Positions 8,210-64,000 of a stretch of DNA of 64,000 nucleotides are shown one piece after another. Each line of letters begins with the position of its first letter. Within the stretch, counting starts at the first letter, position 1. The notes under the pieces were generated by a model that did no database searches, had not been told where the DNA came from, and saw nothing but the letters and a program-made list of their open reading frames with translations. The translations under genes and the position numbers were made by a program. The DNA comes from Marinobacter alexandrii (GTDB taxonomy: Bacteria; Pseudomonadota; Gammaproteobacteria; Pseudomonadales; Oleiphilaceae), in the NCBI RefSeq assembly GCF_005871205.1, contig NZ_SWKM01000011.1, forward strand, positions 248,001 through 312,000. Reading direction: 5' to 3'.

Positions 8210-8238
8210 TTGGCAAGCCAGAAAATCAAGAGTACAGT
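8210..8238 (+). promoter_or_regulatory. Sigma-70-type promoter of the cold-shock gene
   Basis: TTGGCA (8210-8215), a 17-base spacer and TACAGT (8233-8238). Transcription would begin near 8245, leaving a leader of about 164 bases before the ATG at 8409. Long structured leaders that control translation at low temperature are known for the cspA family. Confidence 0.55.
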
Positions 8239-8408
8239 TATTCACGTAGGAAAGATTCAGTAAAGCATTTCATGAATAAGACGTACCTCCGCAGTTAGTA
8301 GTGACCGTCCTGTTTTTGATTCCGCGAGTTCTGTATTTCCGTAAACGCCAGCCTACGCCACAAGGTGTACGGCGGCAGATTAAATGATTGATTTCAGGAA
8401 GTTTAAGT

Positions 8409-8615
8409 ATGTCTACTACTACCGGTACTGTTAAGTTCTTCAACGAAGCTAAAGGCTTTGGCTTTATCACTCGTGAAGGCGGCCCGGACGTATTCGTTCA
8501 CTACAGCGCAATTCAGGGCAGCGGTTTCAAGACCCTGGCAGAAGGCCAGCAGGTTGAGTTTACCGTTACCCAGGGCCAGAAAGGTCCTCAGGCGGAGAAT
8601 GTTACTGCTCTGTAA
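8409..8615 (+). CDS. Cold-shock domain protein, CspA family
   Basis: A 68-residue single cold-shock domain that binds single-stranded RNA or DNA as a chaperone. RNP1 is KGFGFIT (residues 15-21) and RNP2 is VFVHYSAI (29-36), both intact. Start is the ATG at 8409, which has AGGAA just upstream; an in-frame ATG 21 bases earlier would add MISGSLS, which no family member needs. A long leader precedes it and a strong terminator follows. Which csp paralogue it is cannot be decided. Confidence 0.95.
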
Positions 8616-8640
8616 TCCTTTACGGATCAGGCACTAACAG

Positions 8641-8669
8641 AAAAAAGGCAGCTTAGGCTGCCTTTTTTT
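8641..8669 (+). terminator. Rho-independent terminator after the csp gene
   Basis: GGCAGC and GCTGCC pair around TTAG, with six As before and seven Ts after, so it may act in both directions. It begins 26 bases after the csp stop. Confidence 0.92.
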
Positions 8670-8780
8670 GTGGCTGTTTGCCGGCGAGGTTCGGTGCGCT
8701 TTGTGATTTTGCTCCCGCTGTGTAATCTTAGTGTCCCTGTTGCTCGTTAAAATGGACGTCGAGGAATACAGGATCTTTTC

Positions 8781-49429: not shown

Positions 49430-50122
49430 ATGAAAACAAGAGACAAGATTCTGCTCTCAAGTCTGGAGCTGTTTAACGAACGAGGCGAGCGTAACGTCAC
49501 TACCAATCACATAGCGGCGCACCTGGCGATTTCGCCAGGTAATCTGTATTACCACTTCCGCAACAAGTCGGACATCATTTACGAGATCTTCCTCGAGTAC
49601 GAAAAGCTGGTGGATTTCTACCTGGATATCCCGGAAGACCGGGCCATGACGCTCACCGACATGACCTTCTACCTGGAGTCGGTGTTCGATGGCCTGTGGA
49701 GCTATCGGTTTTTTCACCGGGATCTGGAATACCTGCTGGACAGCGATCAGCGCCTGCGCCAGGACTACCGGGAGTTCACGCAGCGCTGCCTCACGGCCAT
49801 CAATCGCATTTTCGAGCGGTTGGCGGAGGCTGGCATCATTGAGGCGCAGCCGGAGGCTTTGCGCGCTGCCATGTCGTTGAACGTGTGGCTGGTGGTGACC
49901 AACTGGATGGCGTTCCTGAAAACCGCGCACGCCGAGGAAACCTACGCCAAGCTGACCCTGAACGAGCTCAAGCAGGGCATCTATCAGGTGCTGACGCTGG
50001 AGTTGCCATACCTGACACCGGCCTACCGTGATCGCGTGCTGGCGTTGCGGGAGCAATACCGACCGACGCTGTCGGATCAGGATGAGGTAGCGCCCGAGCT
50101 GAGCCGGGCGGCGAGTCGCTAG
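49430..50122 (+). CDS. laoR: TetR family regulator LaoR-like
   Basis: A 230-residue TetR-type regulator, slightly long for the family. The N-terminal helix-turn-helix spans about 20-45 (HIAAHLAISPGNLYYHFRNK) and the C-terminal domain is rich in aromatic residues, as fits a long-chain ligand. It is divergent from laoCBA with a perfect palindrome between them. In P. aeruginosa LaoR represses the operon. The start MKTRDKILL at 49430 has no strong ribosome site. Confidence 0.85.
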   Translation: MKTRDKILLSSLELFNERGERNVTTNHIAAHLAISPGNLYYHFRNKSDIIYEIFLEYEKLVDFYLDIPEDRAMTLTDMTFYLESVFDGLWSYRFFHRDLEYLLDSDQRLRQDYREFTQRCLTAINRIFERLAEAGIIEAQPEALRAAMSLNVWLVVTNWMAFLKTAHAEETYAKLTLNELKQGIYQVLTLELPYLTPAYRDRVLALREQYRPTLSDQDEVAPELSRAASR

Positions 50123-50148
50123 ATCTGCTTATAAAATAACCGCATCAG

Positions 50149-50176
50149 GGAACTTTCACGAACGCTAGCCGTCATA
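50149..50176 (+). promoter_or_regulatory. Sigma-E/AlgU-type promoter
   Basis: GGAACTT (50149-50155), 15 bases, GTCATA (50171-50176). The sigma-E consensus is GGAACTT-N15-GTCTAA or GAACTT-N16-TCTGA. Transcription would start near 50183 and reach the terminator at 50293. Confidence 0.6.
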
Positions 50177-50182
50177 TAACTG

Positions 50183-50293
50183 GACGTGGGAAATCCGGAC
50201 ATTTCTTGCGTCTCCTGAGTGAGTTCTCAGGTTTTAGCACGTCGCAAACCCTGACGTTTCACCGGTCTGTCTCTGGCAGACCGGTTTTTTTTT
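50183..50293 (+). ncRNA. Candidate sigma-E-dependent small RNA
   Basis: Predicted transcript of about 110 bases between a sigma-E-like promoter and a strong terminator, with no open reading frame of note. A first hairpin is CCTGAG/CTCAGG (about 50215-50230), preceded by a pyrimidine-rich GTCTCC stretch that could pair with ribosome-binding sites. The end hairpin ACCGGTCTG/CAGACCGGT (50261-50285) carries nine Ts, the usual Hfq-binding tail. It shares the 289-base laoR-dctP gap with the GntR operator. Identity with any named sRNA is not shown. Confidence 0.5.
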
Positions 50294-50360
50294 ATCCATT
50301 TTCCCCGATTCCAATTCCTGCCAACGCTTGTCAGCACTTTTTGTTTTGACTAGACTCGCA

Positions 50361-50378
50361 AATGTTACCGGTAACATT
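50361..50378. promoter_or_regulatory. GntR/LacI-type operator upstream of the TRAP operon
   Basis: AATGTTACCGGTAACATT is a perfect 18-base palindrome. TGTTACC-GGTAACA is the typical gluconate repressor (LacI-type GntR) operator. It lies 33 bases before dctP, and TTGACT at 50346-50351 could be the -35 of the promoter it covers. The gntR gene is at the end of the same operon. Confidence 0.8.
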
Positions 50379-50410
50379 TGCCGATACAAAAACAACCAGG
50401 AGCCCCACGT

Positions 50411-51421
50411 ATGTTTACCAAAAGACTTGCCGCTGGCCTGATTTCGGCCACTTTCGCGCTTCACGCCGCTGCCGCCGACTTTAACTTCAAGTTCCAGTCG
50501 TCAGACCCGTCCGGCGTCAAGAACTTTGAGATCCAGCAGGAGTGGGCTGACCGGGTGGAAAAAATGTCAGGCGGACGGGTCAGCATTGATCTGCTGCCGG
50601 TTGGCAGTGTGGTCAGTCACACCGAAACCCTCGGTGCCATGAAAATGGGCGTGCTCGATGGCCATATCTCAGTCACCGGTTACTTCTCCGGCCAGGATCC
50701 GGCCTTTGGCCTGATCGGTAATACCGTGGGTGCCTGGTCCAGCCCTGACCAGCTCATTGACTACATCAACCATGGCGGCGGCTACGAGCTGATGAATGAA
50801 CTCTACCGTCCGTACGGTGTGAAGTTTGTTGGCGGTGGTGGTACCGGCCTGGAGTCGTTCGTCTCCAAGAAGCCGCTGAACAGCGTTGAAGACCTCAAGG
50901 GTCTGAAGATGCGCGCCCCTGAGGGCCTGGTGCAGTCAGTGTTCGCCGCTGCCGGTGCGGCACCGGTCAATCTGCCGGGCTCTGAGGTCTACACCGCACT
51001 GGGCAAGGGTGTGATCGACGCCGCCGACTACACGGTGTTCTCCACCAACCACCACGCCGGGCTGCACGAAATTGCCGCGCATCCGGTGTACCCGGGTTTC
51101 CACTCCCTGCCGCTGATCGAGATCGCAATGGGTCTCAAGGCCTGGGAAAAGTTGCCGGAAGACATCCAGACCATCATGACGGTGTCGGCAAGGGATTTCG
51201 CCCAGGACATCAGCACCCAGCTGGCGATGGCGGACAAGACTGCGGTCATGGAAGCACGCGCCAACCCGGAGATCACCGTCCACGACTGGTCAGCCGAGGA
51301 GCGCCGGAAGTTCCGCACCATCGCCCGCGATCAGTGGAAGGCCTACGCCGAGCAGTCCCCCAACGCCGAGAAGGTCTACAAGTCAGTGACCACCTACCTC
51401 GAGTCGCAAGGCCTGCTCTGA
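50411..51421 (+). CDS. TRAP transporter solute-binding protein, DctP family
   Basis: A 336-residue periplasmic binding protein with a signal peptide (1-21, ending HAAAA). The DctP fold is marked by the Arg-containing LKGLKMRAPEGL (near 170), which grips the carboxylate of the ligand, and by GAWSSPDQL and the late YADYTVFSTNHHAGLHE-like region. The ligand is probably gluconate or a related sugar acid, inferred from gluconokinase and GntR downstream. CAGGAG lies nine bases before ATG 50411. The GntR operator covers the promoter. Confidence 0.88.
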   Translation: MFTKRLAAGLISATFALHAAAADFNFKFQSSDPSGVKNFEIQQEWADRVEKMSGGRVSIDLLPVGSVVSHTETLGAMKMGVLDGHISVTGYFSGQDPAFGLIGNTVGAWSSPDQLIDYINHGGGYELMNELYRPYGVKFVGGGGTGLESFVSKKPLNSVEDLKGLKMRAPEGLVQSVFAAAGAAPVNLPGSEVYTALGKGVIDAADYTVFSTNHHAGLHEIAAHPVYPGFHSLPLIEIAMGLKAWEKLPEDIQTIMTVSARDFAQDISTQLAMADKTAVMEARANPEITVHDWSAEERRKFRTIARDQWKAYAEQSPNAEKVYKSVTTYLESQGLL

Positions 51422-51486
51422 TCTGATTCCGTCCCCTACCGATACCCTCCGGCCCCGCATTCAGGGGCCGGAGTCCGGAGTTTCTA

Positions 51487-52095
51487 ATGTCTGCTGAACA
51501 TGAACCAACAGGGCAGGCGCCAGGTGATCTGGTGCCGGAGCCCCCAGAGGATGTTGGCTTTACGCCACTGGATCGCGCCATCGTGTGGCTGGGCAAAAAA
51601 CTGAGCCTGGTCTTTGCCCTTATCGCTGTGGTGTCCCTGTACGAAATTGTCCGCCGCTACCTGTTCAACTCACCCACCCTGTGGGTGCACGAGACCGTCA
51701 CCTTTGCCGGTGCCACGTTGTTCGTGCTGGGTGGGTTGTATGCACTGGCGACGGACAAGCACGTGCGCATTGTGCTGGTGTACGACTCGATGTCGCCGGC
51801 CGTCCAGCGCTGGCTCCGGGTTGTGCATCATCTTCTGGGGTTGTTGTTCAGCAGCCTGCTGCTGTATGCCAGCTGGTTCATGGCCCAGTCGGCAGTCGTC
51901 GCGCCCTGGGGCGGCTGGCGGCTGGAGACCTCCGGCTCGGCCTGGAATCCGCCGTTCCCTGCGTTGCTGAAGGTCGTCATCTTTGTTGCCGTGGTGATTC
52001 TCACGCTGCAATTCCTGCTGCACCTGATTCGCGACCTGCGTAACAAGACCAAGCCCAGCCAGGCCTCGGACGACAAGGGAGAGCGCAATGTTTGA
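51487..52095 (+). CDS. TRAP transporter small permease, DctQ family
   Basis: A 202-residue membrane protein with four helices (about 35-60, 70-95, 110-140, 160-185), the DctQ arrangement, and the conserved WVHETVTFAGATLFVLGGLYA-like second-helix region. It supports the large permease, with which it overlaps by eight bases. CGGAG precedes the ATG. dctP lies 65 bases upstream. The N-terminal 30 residues are soluble and acidic. Confidence 0.87.
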   Translation: MSAEHEPTGQAPGDLVPEPPEDVGFTPLDRAIVWLGKKLSLVFALIAVVSLYEIVRRYLFNSPTLWVHETVTFAGATLFVLGGLYALATDKHVRIVLVYDSMSPAVQRWLRVVHHLLGLLFSSLLLYASWFMAQSAVVAPWGGWRLETSGSAWNPPFPALLKVVIFVAVVILTLQFLLHLIRDLRNKTKPSQASDDKGERNV

Positions 52096-53404
52096 ACTTG
52101 CTTCCATGGGCATTGGCTACGGCAGCCTGTTGATGCTGGGCTTGCTGATCCTGTTGTTGCTGACAGGGATGCAGCTGGCGTTTGCCACCGGCCTGGTGGC
52201 ACTGCTATTCGCGCTGGGCTGGTTTGGCCCGGACGCACTGCCGATTGTCAGCAGCCGGCTGTACAGTTTTATTGGCAATTACGTGTTCCTGGCGGTGCCG
52301 ATGTTTGTGTTGATGGCGTCGCTGCTGGATCATTCCGGTATCGCCCGTGATCTGTTTGATGCCATGGCCCGCCTGGGTCGTCGTCTGCGTGGCGGTGTCG
52401 CCATTCAGACATTGATAGTGGCGGTCATCCTGGCCTCCATGTCCGGGGTGATTGGCGGCGAAACTGTGCTGTTGGGCATACTGGCGTTGCCCCAGATGCT
52501 GCGCCTGGGCTACGACCGTAAGCTGGCCATTGGTACCACCTGTGCCGGCGGCGCTTTGGGCACCATGTTGCCCCCGAGTATCGTACTGATCATCTATGGC
52601 CTGACCGCCAACGTTTCCATCGGTGACCTGTTCAAGGGTGCCTTTGCACCGGCGCTGCTGCTGGCCCTGCTGTACATGGGGTACGTGCTGATCCGGGTCT
52701 GGCTGAAGCCGGGAATGGCGCCGTTGCCGTCCGACCAAGACCAGCCGGACACGCCGGCCCCCAATTTCTTCAAGGCGCTGCTGTTTCCCATCCTGTCGGT
52801 GGTGGTGGTGCTCGGTAGCATCTACGGCGGCGTCGCCTCGGTGACCGAGGCTTCGGCCCTGGGTGTGATTGGTATTGCCCTCAGCACCTGGGTGCGTGGT
52901 GAGCTGTCGCTGGACATGATCCGCAAGGCAACCATCAGCACCCTGCGGGTGTGCGGCATGATCATCTGGATTGGTATTGGTGCGACCGCACTGGTGGGCG
53001 TCTACAACCTGATGGGTGGCATCGACTTTGTCCGGGACATGGTGTTCGCGGTCAGTGGCGGCGATGCGCTGCTAACCATCCTGTTCATGATGCTGATCCT
53101 GCTGGTGCTGGGCATGTTCCTGGACTGGGTCGGCGTGGCCTTGCTGACCATGCCGATTTTCGTGCCGATTGTTGTCGAGCTGGGGTACAGCCCGATCTGG
53201 TTCGGGGTGGTGTTCTGCATGAACATGCAGGTGTCCTTCCTGTCGCCGCCATTCGGCCCGGCTGCGTTCTACCTGAAAACGGTGGCGCCGAAAGACATCT
53301 CCCTGGGTGAGATCTTCCAGTCGCTGTTGCCGTTCATTGTGCTTCAGATTGTCGCGCTGGGGCTGTTGATCGCCTTCCCGCAACTGGCGCTGTGGTGGCA
53401 ATGA
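52088..53404 (+). CDS. TRAP transporter large permease, DctM family
   Basis: A 438-residue sodium-coupled permease with about twelve membrane segments. The signature near residues 80-165 includes LFDAMARLGRRLRGGVAIQT and GALGTMLPPSIVLIIYG, and the last part has PFGPAAFYLKTVAP, all typical of DctM. It starts eight bases inside dctQ and its TGA overlaps the ATG of gntK, so the operon is tightly coupled. With DctP and DctQ it should import a sugar acid. Confidence 0.92.
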   Translation: MFELASMGIGYGSLLMLGLLILLLLTGMQLAFATGLVALLFALGWFGPDALPIVSSRLYSFIGNYVFLAVPMFVLMASLLDHSGIARDLFDAMARLGRRLRGGVAIQTLIVAVILASMSGVIGGETVLLGILALPQMLRLGYDRKLAIGTTCAGGALGTMLPPSIVLIIYGLTANVSIGDLFKGAFAPALLLALLYMGYVLIRVWLKPGMAPLPSDQDQPDTPAPNFFKALLFPILSVVVVLGSIYGGVASVTEASALGVIGIALSTWVRGELSLDMIRKATISTLRVCGMIIWIGIGATALVGVYNLMGGIDFVRDMVFAVSGGDALLTILFMMLILLVLGMFLDWVGVALLTMPIFVPIVVELGYSPIWFGVVFCMNMQVSFLSPPFGPAAFYLKTVAPKDISLGEIFQSLLPFIVLQIVALGLLIAFPQLALWWQ

Positions 53405-53925
53405 TGGCGAGCGTACCGAAACTGGTCGTCATGGGCGTATCGGGCTGCGGCAAGAGCCTGGTCGGGAGTCTGTTGGCGCAGGCGCTGGCGGTTCCCTTCT
53501 TCGATGCCGACAGTTACCACAGCCGGGCCAATGTCGAGAAGATGGCCAGTGGCATCCCGCTGACCGATGACGATCGGGCCGGCTGGCTGGCCGACCTGGC
53601 ATCGTTGATCCAGAATCAGGACTCCGGTCTGGTTTTGGCGTGCTCGGCGCTGAAGCGGACCTATCGCGAACGCTTGCGGGCCGAAAATCCTCAGCTGCGC
53701 ATCGTCTACCTCCGGGGCGATTTTCAGACTATCTGGGCGCGTCTTTCCCGGCGTGAGGACCATTACTTCAATGGTCAGGCCATGCTCGAGAGTCAGTTCC
53801 AGTTATTGCAGGAACCCGAGCCGGACGAGGGCGCCATTACCCTCGATGTCACCGATCGTCCGGAGAGCCTGGTGCGCCAGTGCCTTGCGGTGCTGACCGC
53901 AACCGGGGAAGATGCCAGGGGCTGA
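53401..53925 (+). CDS. gntK: Gluconokinase
   Basis: GntK phosphorylates D-gluconate to 6-phosphogluconate. The 174-residue protein has a P-loop MGVSGCGKS (11-19), DADSYHSRANVEKMASGIPL (substrate region, 36-55) and ACSALKRTYRERLR (near 80-93), all family signatures. Length matches E. coli GntK (175). The start is the ATG at 53401 in the ATGA overlap with dctM; a GTG nine bases earlier is possible. Product feeds the Entner-Doudoroff or pentose phosphate route. Confidence 0.94.
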   Translation: MMASVPKLVVMGVSGCGKSLVGSLLAQALAVPFFDADSYHSRANVEKMASGIPLTDDDRAGWLADLASLIQNQDSGLVLACSALKRTYRERLRAENPQLRIVYLRGDFQTIWARLSRREDHYFNGQAMLESQFQLLQEPEPDEGAITLDVTDRPESLVRQCLAVLTATGEDARG

Positions 53926-53994
53926 AGCCGGTGCCAGCGCGGACTCCTGTTCGCTTCACCTCTAGCCGCATCTCTGTCGTTGCAGGAATCATGC

Positions 53995-54993
53995 ATGGGA
54001 AAGAACAAGCGTCCGACGTTGCAGGACATTGCCGACCGGGTCGGCACCACCAAGATGACAGTCAGTCGCTGTCTGCGCGGCGGCGACAACGTGTCCGAGA
54101 AGATGCGGGAGCGCATCTTTGCCGAAGCCGAGGCGCTCGGTTACATCCCGAACCGGGCACCCGACTTGTTGTCGAAATCCAAGAGTCACGCCGTCGGCGT
54201 GCTGCTGCCTTCGCTGACCAACCAGGTATTCGCTGACGTCATCAAGGGGATTGAGTCGGTCACCGAGCAGGCCGGCTATCATCTGATGCTGGCGCATTAC
54301 GGCTATAGCCCGGAGATTGAGGAGCGCAGCCTGGCATCGCTGCTGTCCTACAACGTCGATGGTGTGATCCTGTCCGAGAGCCAGCACACCGACCGAACCT
54401 TCCGGATGCTGGAAACTGCCGGCGTGCCCACGGTCGAGATCATGGACACCCACACCCGGCCGTTTGAGCAGGCTGTCGGCTTCGATAACGTTCAGGCCGC
54501 CTACGATATGGTGCGGGAAATGATTCGCCGGGGCCGCACCGTCATCGTCTACCTGGCGGTGCGCCTGGATGCCCGGACCCTGCAGCGGCAGGAGGGCTAT
54601 GTCAGAGCCATGACCGAAGCCGGTTTGACACCGGTGACCCTGCGCAGCGAACAGCGGTCGTCGTTCAGCGTCGGGGCCACGCTGTTAAAGCGCATCCTGG
54701 CGGACAATCCCAACACGGATGCCATCTTCTGCACCAACGACGACGTTGCCATCGGTGCCTATTTCGAATGTCAGCGCCAGGGCATTGCGGTGCCACAGGC
54801 CATCGCCATTGCCGGGTTCCACGGTCACGATGTCGGGCAGGTGATGGTGCCGCGCCTTGCCAGCGTTATTACCCCGCGGGAAGCAGTGGGGCAGCGGGCC
54901 GCCCGGGAACTGCTGGCGCGACTGTCCGGCCAGCCCCAGGGCGAAACCTGTATTGATCTGGGCTACCGGATCGAGTGCGGCGGCACTCTTTAA
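53995..54993 (+). CDS. gntR: LacI-type gluconate repressor GntR
   Basis: A 332-residue LacI-family repressor. The helix-turn-helix TLQDIADRVGTTKMTVSRCL lies near residues 8-27, followed by the hinge (NRAPDLLSKSKSHAVGVLLP) and a sugar-binding core. E. coli GntR has 331 residues. Free gluconate is the known inducer. The ATG at 53995 (MGKNKRPTL) is the family start. It closes the dctPQM-gntK operon, 69 bases after gntK, and the matching operator is at 50361-50378. Confidence 0.92.
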   Translation: MGKNKRPTLQDIADRVGTTKMTVSRCLRGGDNVSEKMRERIFAEAEALGYIPNRAPDLLSKSKSHAVGVLLPSLTNQVFADVIKGIESVTEQAGYHLMLAHYGYSPEIEERSLASLLSYNVDGVILSESQHTDRTFRMLETAGVPTVEIMDTHTRPFEQAVGFDNVQAAYDMVREMIRRGRTVIVYLAVRLDARTLQRQEGYVRAMTEAGLTPVTLRSEQRSSFSVGATLLKRILADNPNTDAIFCTNDDVAIGAYFECQRQGIAVPQAIAIAGFHGHDVGQVMVPRLASVITPREAVGQRAARELLARLSGQPQGETCIDLGYRIECGGTL

Positions 54994-55034: not shown

Positions 55035-55667
55035 TCAATCGTCGGCCGGTGCTTCCAGCCAGTTCGTCAGTGCCTCCCGGCACTCATCCACACCCCTTTT
55101 CGATGTCGCTGAAAACATGATCAGGTGGTGCACGCAACTGAACGGTTTCAGGTCCTTGGCAATGCCCATCATGGCGGTTTTGGCCTGGCCGAATTTCAGT
55201 TTGTCGGCCTTGGTGGCCAGAATCATCAGCGGAAGGTTGTTATGTTCACACCATTCCACCATCATTTGGTCGAATTCGGTCAGCGGGTGGCGGATATCCA
55301 TCACCAGTACCAGGCCGCGTAGGCAGCGCCGGTCGTTCAGGTAGTGGCCGAGGTGCTTTTGCCAGTCGTCCTTCATATCCCGGGACACCTTGGCATAGCC
55401 ATAGCCGGGCAGGTCCACCAGGCGGCAGCCCTCGCGGTTCAGGGTGAAGAAGTTGATCAACCGGGTGCGGCCCGGTGTTTTACTGGTTCGGGCCAGCTTG
55501 CCATGGGCGGTGATCGCATTGAGTGCGCTGGATTTGCCGGCGTTGGAGCGGCCGGCGAAGGCCACTTCGGCACCAAAATCCGGTGGGCATTCGTCCAGCC
55601 GGGAGGCGCTGATCAGGAAGCGGGCACTGTTGAAAGAGACGGGGTTCGGGGTCAGATCAAGGTCCAC
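55035..55667 (-). CDS. engB: Ribosome biogenesis GTPase EngB/YihA
   Basis: An essential GTPase in large-subunit assembly and cell division. The 210-residue protein has G1 GRSNAGKSS (39-47), the G3 DLPGYG and G4 ATKADK boxes. E. coli YihA has 210 residues. It is convergent with gntR (about 40 bases) and divergent from cytochrome c4, as in P. aeruginosa, where polA lies on the other side; here the gluconate operon occupies that side. Confidence 0.95.
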   Translation of the reverse strand: MDLDLTPNPVSFNSARFLISASRLDECPPDFGAEVAFAGRSNAGKSSALNAITAHGKLARTSKTPGRTRLINFFTLNREGCRLVDLPGYGYAKVSRDMKDDWQKHLGHYLNDRRCLRGLVLVMDIRHPLTEFDQMMVEWCEHNNLPLMILATKADKLKFGQAKTAMMGIAKDLKPFSCVHHLIMFSATSKRGVDECREALTNWLEAPADD

Positions 55668-56544: not shown

Positions 56545-56572
56545 GGAACTTTCTCCGCTGGCTGGGTCATAA
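56545..56572 (+). promoter_or_regulatory. Sigma-E/AlgU-type promoter of dsbA
   Basis: GGAACTT (56545-56551) and TCATAA (56567-56572) with a 15-base spacer. It lies about 40 bases before the dsbA start, and DsbA is known to rise with AlgU activity in P. aeruginosa. Confidence 0.6.
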
Positions 56573-61509: not shown

Positions 61510-64000
61510 ATGAAGCTGGGTAAGAAAAAGACCGGCGACGCTTCCGGTGATGAAAAGCCCGCCAAGAATAACAAGAAGGCAGCCGCGGGCTCAAAGCTCA
61601 AAAAGCTGAATTCGGTGGCCGCCACTCAGGCACTCGTGGTGGTGCTGGCCGGGGTTCTGGCTGCGGTGCTGGTACATTTTCTGGTGGTCCAGCCAGCCGC
61701 AATCGAGCGGTTTGATGTCGAAAAGGCCATTGAGGCCGAGTCGGCGGCGCTGCGAATGAATCAGTATCTGTCACTGATGCAGGCCAGTGTAAATGGTCTG
61801 GCCGATCGACCGGACGTTATTGCCGCGGTGTCTGAACCCGGCGGTATCGTGGCCACCGAAGAGAGCCTGGCCAGTGCATTGCCGGGCATTCAGGGGGTGC
61901 ATCTGTTCCCGTACCGGCAGATTCCCCGTACCGCCAACGAGCGGGGCGCGCTCGGATTCGCTGGTCTTGAACTGCTGCGGCGGGCGGAAAATGGTCAGCC
62001 GTTGCACCCGGATGCATTTCCGCGGGACAACCGCTGGCTGGTCCAGATGGCAACGCCGGTTCGCAATCCGGTCAGCAATGCGGTGATTGGCAGCCTGCTG
62101 GTGATCTTTGACGCTGCCCGCCTGCAGCCGCTGTTGCAGGTGGTCAACGCTGACCTCGGTGGCAAGCTGGAACTGACCCAGACTGTGGCCGGCACCACCC
62201 GTGCGATTGTCAGCCAGGGCAGCGGGTCCGGAGCGGCAGAAACCCGGTCATTGGCCAACCCCGACTGGTCGGTTGCCTACACCCCGGCTAAGGCGCCGAC
62301 CGCGCCAGTGGACATCGTGATGATCGCCATGCTGGTCGGGGCACCGATCCTGCTGGCCGCCATTCTTGTATGGATTCTGCTCAGCCGTGCGCAACAGAGT
62401 ATTCGCCAGGACGTTAGTGCCCTGATTCAATGGGCGCACAAGGTGTTCGGAGGCGACCGGGTCAAGCTGCCGTCGCTCCAATGGGACATGGTGGCGTCCA
62501 CCGGTGAGGTTCTGCCCGGCTGTCCCAAGTGGTGGATAAGCGCGTGGCCAAGGCCCTGGAGATGGCGCGGCCGAAGAAATCGGCGGGTAGTAAGCAGCCG
62601 GTGGCGGCCGGCGACGACGAGCCCCTGTTTCAGGATAAGGACATGCCCGACATCGACATGCTCGACGGCGATGAGGACGTCCTCGGTTTTGGCGGCGACG
62701 ACCTGCTGCCGGGCGGCGATAGCCTGGAAGTGAAAGAAACTCCCGAGCCGACGGTGGCGTTGTCCCCCGACATCTTCCGGGCCTATGACATTCGCGGCAT
62801 CGTCGGCGATACCCTGTCCGCCGATGCGGTCCAGCTGATTGGTCGGGCCATTGGTTCCGAAGCCGTGAAACGTGGTATTGGCGCCCTGTGCATTGGTTAT
62901 GACGGCCGCCATTCCAGCCCCGAACTGGCTAACGCTCTGGCCCGTGGTGTCATGGCAACCGGTTGCGATGTGATTCATGTCGGTGCTGTGCCCACGCCGG
63001 TGCTTTATTTTGCCACCCACGAGCTTCAGACCGGCTCCGGGGTGATGGTGACCGGCAGCCACAATCCGGCCAATTACAATGGCCTGAAGATCATGCTGGG
63101 CGGCGAAACCCTGTCCGGGGATGCCATCCAGAAACTGTACCAGCGAACCCAGGCTGCCGATTTTGCCAGTGGCCAGGGCGGTCAGTCGTCGGAAGACGTC
63201 CGTCGGGCCTACCTGGATCGAATCGTTGGCGATATAGCCGTGGCAGCCCCGCTGAAGGTGGTGGTGGATGCCGGTAATGGCATCGCTGGTGAGCTGGCAC
63301 CGATGCTGGTCGAAGAGCTTGGCTGTGAAGTGGTGCCCCTGTACTGCGAGGTCGATGGCAATTTCCCGAATCACCACCCGGATCCGGGCAAGCCGGCAAA
63401 CCTGGCCGACTTGATCGCTCGGGTAAAAGAAGAGAAGGCCGACATTGGCCTGGCGTTCGATGGCGACGGTGATCGCCTGGGGGTGGTCACCAACACCGGC
63501 AAGATCATCTGGCCGGATCGTTTGCTGATGCTGTTTGCCCGCGATGTGGTTTCGCGTAACCCGGGCGCCGATGTGCTCTATGACGTCAAATGCAGTCGGC
63601 GCCTGGCCGGAGTCATTTCAGAAGCTGGCGGTCGGCCGATCATGTGGAAAACCGGCCACTCGCTGATGAAGGCCAAGATGAAAGAGACCGGTGCTCAGTT
63701 GGCTGGTGAAATGAGTGGGCATATTTTCTTTGGCGAACGCTGGTACGGCTTTGATGATGGCCTGTATGCCGCAGCCCGCCTGCTGGAAATTCTCGGTATC
63801 GAAGACCGGCACAGCGACGAGGTGTTCGCCGACTTCCCCGAGGATGTCAGCACGCCGGAGCTAAATGTCGAAGTGACTGAGAGCAGCAAATTCGGGATTA
63901 TTGAACGGCTGGGTCAGGACGGACAGTTTGGTGACGGCAATATCAGCACGATTGACGGCATCCGCGTGGATTACGCCGATGGCTGGGGGCTGTGCCGGGC
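61510..64000 (+). CDS. algC: Phosphomannomutase/phosphoglucomutase AlgC, frameshifted and cut by the window end
   Basis: AlgC interconverts mannose and glucose 1- and 6-phosphates for LPS and exopolysaccharide. This is the long form: a Lys-rich start, membrane helix (near 45-65), periplasmic domain, second helix (near 275-298) and cytoplasmic linker, then the mutase. A missing base near 62513 moves the frame; the upstream frame stops at 62733. The catalytic half continues in the other frame: phosphoserine TGSHNPANYNG, metal loop FDGDGDRLG and sugar loop GEMSGH are intact. An ATG at 62562 could start it separately. The 3' end is outside the window. Confidence 0.85.
62511..62520 (+). other. Frameshift site in algC
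   Basis: TCTGCCCGGC here would read through as TCTGGCCCGGC with one more G, giving EVLARLSQVVDKRV across the join. In the present frame the protein reads EVLPGCPKWW and becomes unlike the family; the other frame has a TGA at 62505. Confidence 0.8.

Follow-up and report, generated by a model that had tools for sequence, protein, structure and literature searches.

Results

Features of the locus

We analyzed a stretch of 64,000 nucleotides from Marinobacter alexandrii (the window), in which a TetR-family regulator gene is followed, on the same strand, by a sigma-E-type promoter, a predicted small RNA and a transporter operon, with engB beyond the operon on the opposite strand (Table 1). The substrate of the operon is presumably gluconate. 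The interval behind the TetR gene had been proposed, in an initial annotation made from the sequence alone, to hold a separate sigma-E-driven small-RNA gene with a GGAACTT-N15-GTCATA promoter and a hairpin followed by a T run. Both promoter elements are indeed present, with a 15-base spacer, at 50149-50176, and so is the hairpin, as a terminator stem with the T run behind it. It should be noted that the RNA size of ~109 nt is a prediction from the positions of promoter and terminator. No open reading frame of at least 90 amino acids was found between 50123 and 50377.

Table 1. Features of the small-RNA locus and its neighbours (window coordinates)
Feature	Position	Strand	Remarks
TetR-family regulator gene (laoR in the initial annotation)	49430..50122	+	Pfam TetR_N and TetR
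-35 element GGAACTT of sigma-E (RpoE/AlgU)-type promoter	50149..50155	+	mean pairwise column identity 0.91
-10 element GTCATA	50171..50176	+	15-base spacing from -35; identity 0.63
Predicted small RNA	50183..50291	+	start inferred from promoter; end in U tail
Hairpin 1 (12 pairs)	50183..50212	+	hexaloop CCGGAC 50195-50200; two-sided changes
Hairpin 2, CCTGAG/CTCAGG	50214..50231	+	identity 0.86; predicted pairs, one-sided changes only
Hairpin 3, most conserved part	50239..50257	+	loop CAAACCC 50245-50251; proposed seed AAACCCUGACG
Intrinsic terminator	50261..50293	+	11-pair stem 50261-50285, then T run
Operon of TRAP transporter, small kinase and LacI-type regulator	50411..54993	+	DctP, SKI/AAA_33 and LacI domains
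engB (ysxC)	55035..55667	-	TIGR03598 match G000:C1:303068-303625, minus strand

We compared the frequency of the promoter motif to that expected by chance. The pattern GGAACTT-N15-17-TCNNA occurs twice in the window versus 0.22 copies expected (at least two copies in 3 of 100 shuffles), and GAACTT-N15-17-GTCNNA occurs once versus 0.21 expected (at least one copy in 18 of 100 shuffles). Taken alone, the motif is only modestly significant; therefore, conservation is the decisive evidence. A second sigma-E-type promoter, GGAACTT ... GTCATA, was observed at 56545-56571, ~40 bases before dsbA. This promoter is kept in 43 of the 45 Marinobacter relatives with enough sequence, whereas 43 of 2160 random 140-base windows matched in the control. 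The genome studied here carries genes for RpoE and Hfq, and the dsbA promoter is conserved, so such promoters look functional in Marinobacter.

Conservation in the genus

A search of related genomes, the first check suggested for the locus, matched the segment by BLASTN in 57 of the 61 genomes of the genus (own genome counted). A covariance model recovered the RNA in one more genome, G030 (48.3 bits), adjoining engB, which brings the total to 58 of 61. Two of the remaining genomes, G035 and G059, gave neither an RNA by BLASTN nor an engB match at E <= 1e-40, so both are uninformative about absence of the RNA. The third, G043, has lost the RNA: its locus (L317) lacks the TetR gene along with the RNA, and engB directly follows an aldehyde dehydrogenase gene.

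We aligned 55 sequences, i.e., the window and 54 of the 56 other genomes with a BLASTN match (G019 and G033 were left out). The promoter fits a loose form in 54 of them and a stricter form in 50; among 53 scored sequences, the -35 element is GGAACTT in 38 and TGAACTT in eight, and the spacing is 15 in 49. Mean pairwise column identity, listed in Table 1 for the two promoter elements and for hairpin 2, is 0.33 in the promoter spacer, 0.88 in the loop of hairpin 1 and 0.96 in hairpin 3, and falls to 0.29 both upstream of the promoter and past the terminator. Viewed at the sequence level, this island-like conservation is the pattern of a promoter together with a functional RNA.

The surroundings are regular as well. 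The RNA lies downstream of the TetR gene on the same strand, with engB beyond it in the opposite direction, in all 54 relatives from which the region was fetched. RNA and engB converge directly (RNA -> <- engB) in 44 of the 54, the distance from the centre of the RNA match to the end of the engB match being 62-132 nt; the other ten resemble the window in that the two are separated by an operon for a TRAP transporter and a LacI-type regulator. Given that the operon is found in 10 relatives and missing in 44, it is most simply explained as a patchily distributed insert, the usual arrangement of the genus being RNA -> <- engB. In the own genome polA is not adjacent, as it lies on contig C12 and the RNA on C1. 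The sequence behind polA showed no second copy of the RNA in the family; 30 polA loci were compared, two of them with fewer than 100 bases of this flank. In these 30 loci, a loose sigma-E pattern marked two Pseudomonadaceae loci, where it belongs to ErsA itself, and weak sites in G043.

Predicted structure and covariation

In the predicted fold, the 109-base RNA forms three hairpins before the terminator (-45.5 kcal/mol, z = -4.67, none of 200 shuffles as good), rather than the single small stem-loop that had been annotated. RNAalifold on the alignment of the segment (A1) missed hairpin 1, because the hairpin ends were misaligned, and a 30-base sub-alignment (A2) was built instead. Of the 55 sequences, 42 take the 30-base form and make 9 or more of the 12 pairs, 29 of them being distinct; 22 of the 29 were aligned, 7 were dropped with stems out of register, and 13 of the 55 never fit. 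The initial annotation had suggested looking for compensatory changes, and hairpin 1 has them: 9 of its 12 pairs changed on both sides (35 cells in the 22 chosen distinct sequences). Altogether 94.7% of cells pair, a percentage that is biased upward since sequences entered A2 on account of their standard length and good pairing, the two-sided changes being less affected. None of 500 shuffles reached any of the five measures used, and all slid alignments scored below the real one on all five. The two strands of the stem have identities of 0.60 and 0.64, compared to the higher value of the loop, which retains CGGA while the stem varies.

Variation in hairpins 2 and 3 is too slight to tell much about pairing; the terminator stem includes pairs with two-sided changes. 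In sister genera, the hairpin-3 stretch AAACCCTGACG is exact in 5 of 10 rows despite a differing 5' arm of the hairpin, and is altered in the other five. Because it stays exact where the 5' arm has changed, the comparison suggests that this stretch is kept for what it binds and not for the hairpin.

Thus, the proposed separate sigma-E-type small-RNA gene is backed by conservation, covariation, promoter and terminator. The general kind is likewise recognizable, i.e., the promoter type, a short, structured and conserved RNA, a terminator, and no protein gene of at least 90 amino acids. Within the reach of genome comparison, the conserved gene, its promoter type, its structure and its slot are established, and the segment very likely encodes a small regulatory RNA.

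The engB slot across the order

We surveyed the 3' flanks of engB in the order. The gene scored above the family cut-off in 111 of 115 order genomes, of which 107 are outside Marinobacter, and flanks were taken for 104 of these 107 loci (G149, G091 and G081 were left out). In 32 of the 104 loci we found a strict sigma-E pattern that is directed towards engB and lies no more than 450 nt from its 3' end, versus 3 on the reverse strand, a Markov expectation of 1.8, and 1 of 101 in a far-upstream control. The 32 positive loci span 20 family labels, and the ErsA loci are among them. Thirty of the 32 RNAs could be trimmed to a T run for folding; CCC is present in one or more apical loops of 27 of them and in two or more of 15, with a mean of 1.4 versus 0.18 in base-shuffled sequence. 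The Marinobacter RNA has CCC in just one predicted hairpin loop. Among other families of the order (engB flanks L085-L188) we observed unnamed sigma-E-promoted RNAs with C-rich loops, few of which are reached by the ErsA model of Rfam (RF01719).

Relation to ErsA

ErsA of Pseudomonas aeruginosa is reported to depend on sigma-22 and to contain a 34-nt U-rich unstructured domain II between SL1 and SL2 (PMC8575079); background was also drawn from PMC7264166. ErsA acts on algC and oprD in an Hfq-dependent manner. The initial annotation had offered a relation to ErsA as speculation. Going beyond it, a positional tie is supported, as the slot of the RNA is convergent with engB; homology in sequence is not shown, as RF01719 gave no match at the gathering score (50 bits) in the window and none at E <= 10 on 49900-50500. 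The same model identified ErsA in two of the 32 positive loci (134 and 126.8 bits), and a third ErsA (120.6 bits) in a locus of a separate Pseudomonadaceae sample.

In the 115 order genomes RF01719 gave 22 matches at E <= 0.1 in 21 genomes, above the cut-off in G151, G119 and G079. The matches in G151, G119, G129 and G135 lie within a correctly oriented polA-RNA-engB row. The match in G166 adjoins engB, with polA ~2.5 kb off; those in G157, G093 and G079 are downstream of polA, with engB elsewhere, and the one in G067 is also downstream of polA, in a genome with no engB above the cut-off. Matches in G109 and G133 are near engB but in the opposite direction, and those in G061, G105 and G161 are linked to neither gene. 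In the own genome there is a weak match at C1:359504 (E 0.053). By eye, we also noted an ErsA-like RNA with engB in G184, where polA is ~96 kb away. The unlinked matches G061:C38:32305-32420 (45.8 bits) and G105:C1:785976-786090 (35.6 bits) are ErsA-like, suggesting that the RNA was relocated in that family. The simplest history of such rows would be an ancestral order polA -> RNA -> <- engB, broken in different ways.

Searches in the reverse direction used models of the Marinobacter RNA. When the genus model (R1) was applied to 100 of the 104 order loci, five matched, led by two of 18.0 and 17.2 bits (E 0.022 and 0.034), mainly at the terminator. Among 39 sister-genus genomes searched in full, R1 reached E <= 0.002 in seven, each time beside engB; its weaker matches (G251, the second in G268, and others) were away from engB, with the exception of G261 (E 0.088), which is beside it. 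By eye, the RNA is present at engB in 7 of 15 sister genera and absent there in 8. The family-level model (R2), which retained only 6 pairs, ranked three ErsA-type loci first of 87 (~17 bits, E ~0.01), with the terminator contributing. The 8-mer CCCTAGCG, a word picked after the sequences had been seen, was found in 12 of 184 loci (10 genomes: eight Pseudomonadaceae and two of sister genera), always on the RNA strand and never on the other.

Since the usual arrangement of the genus, RNA -> <- engB, is the slot of ErsA, the positional correspondence is well supported by the gene maps, whereas the sequence link to ErsA is weak. These comparisons suggest that the Marinobacter RNA is the counterpart of ErsA by place and promoter, with most of the sequence changed; common descent is probable. 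A bolder history, which we put forward as a tentative possibility, begins with a single ancient small-RNA gene for envelope stress that remained in the polA-engB slot over much of the order. Its sigma-E promoter, orientation, terminator and loops containing C would have been preserved, and each lineage would have acquired a new pairing sequence. The RNAs of Pseudomonas (ErsA) and Marinobacter would then stand at opposite ends of one series; when the slot broke up, the RNA would have stayed beside engB in Marinobacter and beside polA elsewhere.

Conversely, the Marinobacter RNA could be a sigma-E-driven small RNA that does not share descent with ErsA; small RNAs would then have arisen repeatedly in the intergenic slot of polA and engB. 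The failure of RF01719 in the window would be expected in that case, as would the lack of a convincing R1 match in the 100 order loci, the eight sister genera with no RNA at engB, and the weak RF01719 matches that are outside the slot or wrongly directed (G109, G133, G161, G061 and G105). Repeated origin does not, however, readily account for an identical slot, direction and promoter class in nearly a third of the order loci and in 20 families, for the RF01719 matches below the cut-off that do lie in the slot (G129, G135 and G166), or for the shared word CCCTAGCG; we regard it as unlikely.

Proposed function and alternatives

We consider it likely that the locus encodes a stand-alone, trans-acting RNA of ~109 nt, transcribed by RpoE under envelope stress and ended by its own terminator, which would be the Marinobacter member of a polA/engB-slot lineage that includes ErsA and would act, most likely with Hfq, through hairpin 3. 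The RNA is probably switched on by envelope stress, to judge from its promoter. The chain that we infer, from transcription and sigma-E control to Hfq, seed and repression, would be as follows. Envelope stress would free RpoE (sigma-E/AlgU), which would transcribe the RNA; the transcript would end at its own terminator in a U tail and then be held by Hfq. The C-containing loop region of hairpin 3 (AAACCCUGACG) would pair with mRNAs bearing AGGGUUU-like sites near their translation starts, and this pairing would lower the synthesis of envelope or metabolic proteins. The slot polA -> RNA -> <- engB would be that of the lineage in Pseudomonadales, with polA having come to lie elsewhere in Marinobacter and the operon having entered in some species.

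An Hfq-type end, as annotated initially, is plausible, because of the U run and the presence of an hfq gene. The pairing stretch named there, GTCTCC, is taken up nearly in full by predicted stems 1 and 2 and was ruled out as an exposed seed; on the predicted fold, a seed in hairpin 3 is likelier. A pairing scan over the 48 genes of the window showed no excess over shuffled sequence (medians -14.7 real and -14.9 shuffled). The suggestion that algC is a target was not borne out, as the start of this gene ranked 7th of 48 in the scan, and it was rejected as a supported target. A search for targets by the word CAGGGTTTGC was dropped; the word occurs 26 times in G064, which is outside the family, versus 42 times in G000, and, being common also outside the family, its frequency says nothing. 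We observed separately that algC is apparently split in two frames near 62.5 kb (window 61511-64000): a membrane-domain frame ends at 62733 and a phosphomutase-like frame is open from 62529, which may reflect a sequencing error, a real frameshift or gene fission.

The conserved loop of hairpin 1 raises the question of whether the RNA works mainly by binding RsmA/CsrA through this hexaloop, as a small decoy or as an RsmA-controlled RNA. CGGA(C/T), which we take to resemble an RsmA/CsrA site, is present in the 5' hairpin region of 51 of the 55 sequences, with GGA in the apical loop of the local fold, mostly a hexaloop, in 49; three sister-genus rows have ACGGAT at the same loop, and the stem around it changes on both sides. 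Known RsmA/CsrA decoys, however, carry several sites, whereas the Marinobacter RNA has a single one, the first base of its hexaloop is mostly C or U and not A, and hairpin 3 is more conserved than hairpin 1. We find this mode of action improbable.

Weaker still is the view that the segment merely closes the TetR-family gene, as its 3' end and terminator, and gives rise to no separate transcript. The constant same-strand position behind that gene agrees with it, but the promoter between gene and RNA is conserved while its surroundings are not, and a terminator alone needs no hairpins 1-3 with covariation; this view seems very improbable. It is scarcely credible that the promoter, which is directed at both the operon and engB, drives the former or exerts antisense control over the latter, given the intrinsic terminator in between and the genus-wide conservation of the promoter even though 44 of 54 relatives have no operon.

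On the preferred reading, i.e., a trans-acting RNA driven by sigma-E, the Marinobacter RNA would be a small-RNA gene with no Rfam match that is kept nearly throughout the genus, and its position and promoter would tie this orphan to ErsA, a well-studied RNA with which sequence searches fail to connect it. Promoter and place are kept across the order and the pairing sequence is exchanged, a pattern that makes dozens of loci available for testing how a stress regulon evolves. It also suggests that, in small-RNA discovery, conserved slots rather than sequences are worth searching. If the hypothesis of one ancient gene is true, these loci form a natural series for the study of a small RNA changing its regulon.

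Comparison with known systems

Searches against Rfam 15 gave no match at the gathering score for the Marinobacter RNA. The best match of the region was to anti-hemB RNA (RF02837; 24.7 bits, E 0.0015), known from Burkholderia (PMC5688073, PMC3521395), and this identity was ruled out as the match is far under the gathering score of 49.5. Two other Rfam matches were observed: a cspA thermoregulator at window positions 8235-8671 (84.4 bits versus a cut-off of 78), and a weak match to RsmY at L035 7322-7436 (27.0 bits versus a cut-off of 57), near the cytochrome c4-dsbA gene interval. Among the titles of the matches listed in a search for literature on a Marinobacter small RNA or joining these loci, there was no description of the RNA.

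Spot 42 (spf) of Escherichia coli presumably has engB/yihA as its neighbour, and we know of no sigma-E promoter for it. The window region has no Rfam match to Spot 42. The likeness is that Spot 42 is a polA-locus small RNA too; it is repressed by cAMP-CRP, according to a title cited in PMC3771888. The same source counts sX13 and alpha-r7, with Spot 42, among the known polA-locus small RNAs and asks about their presence in other bacteria (PMC3771888). The sX13 RNA of Xanthomonas is a polA-locus RNA with stem-loops, and its C-rich loops recall those of the engB-slot RNAs of other families; it differs in having two CCCC loops and one CCCCC loop, compared to one CCC loop in the Marinobacter RNA, and in its reported independence of Hfq (PMC3771888).

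ErsA differs from the Marinobacter RNA in its length, reported as 132 nt (PMC5819304) compared to ~109 nt, and in its adjacent polA. It also differs in its long U-rich unpaired domain, which has no predicted equivalent in the Marinobacter fold, where the longest internal unpaired linker is 7 nt. The likenesses are in the plan of the gene: both RNAs are convergent with engB (the window itself having the insert), both have a promoter of the sigma-22 (AlgU) type, and both are separate genes with their own terminator and a C-containing loop before it, while the ErsA word CCCTAGCG recurs in the slot of two sister-genus genomes.
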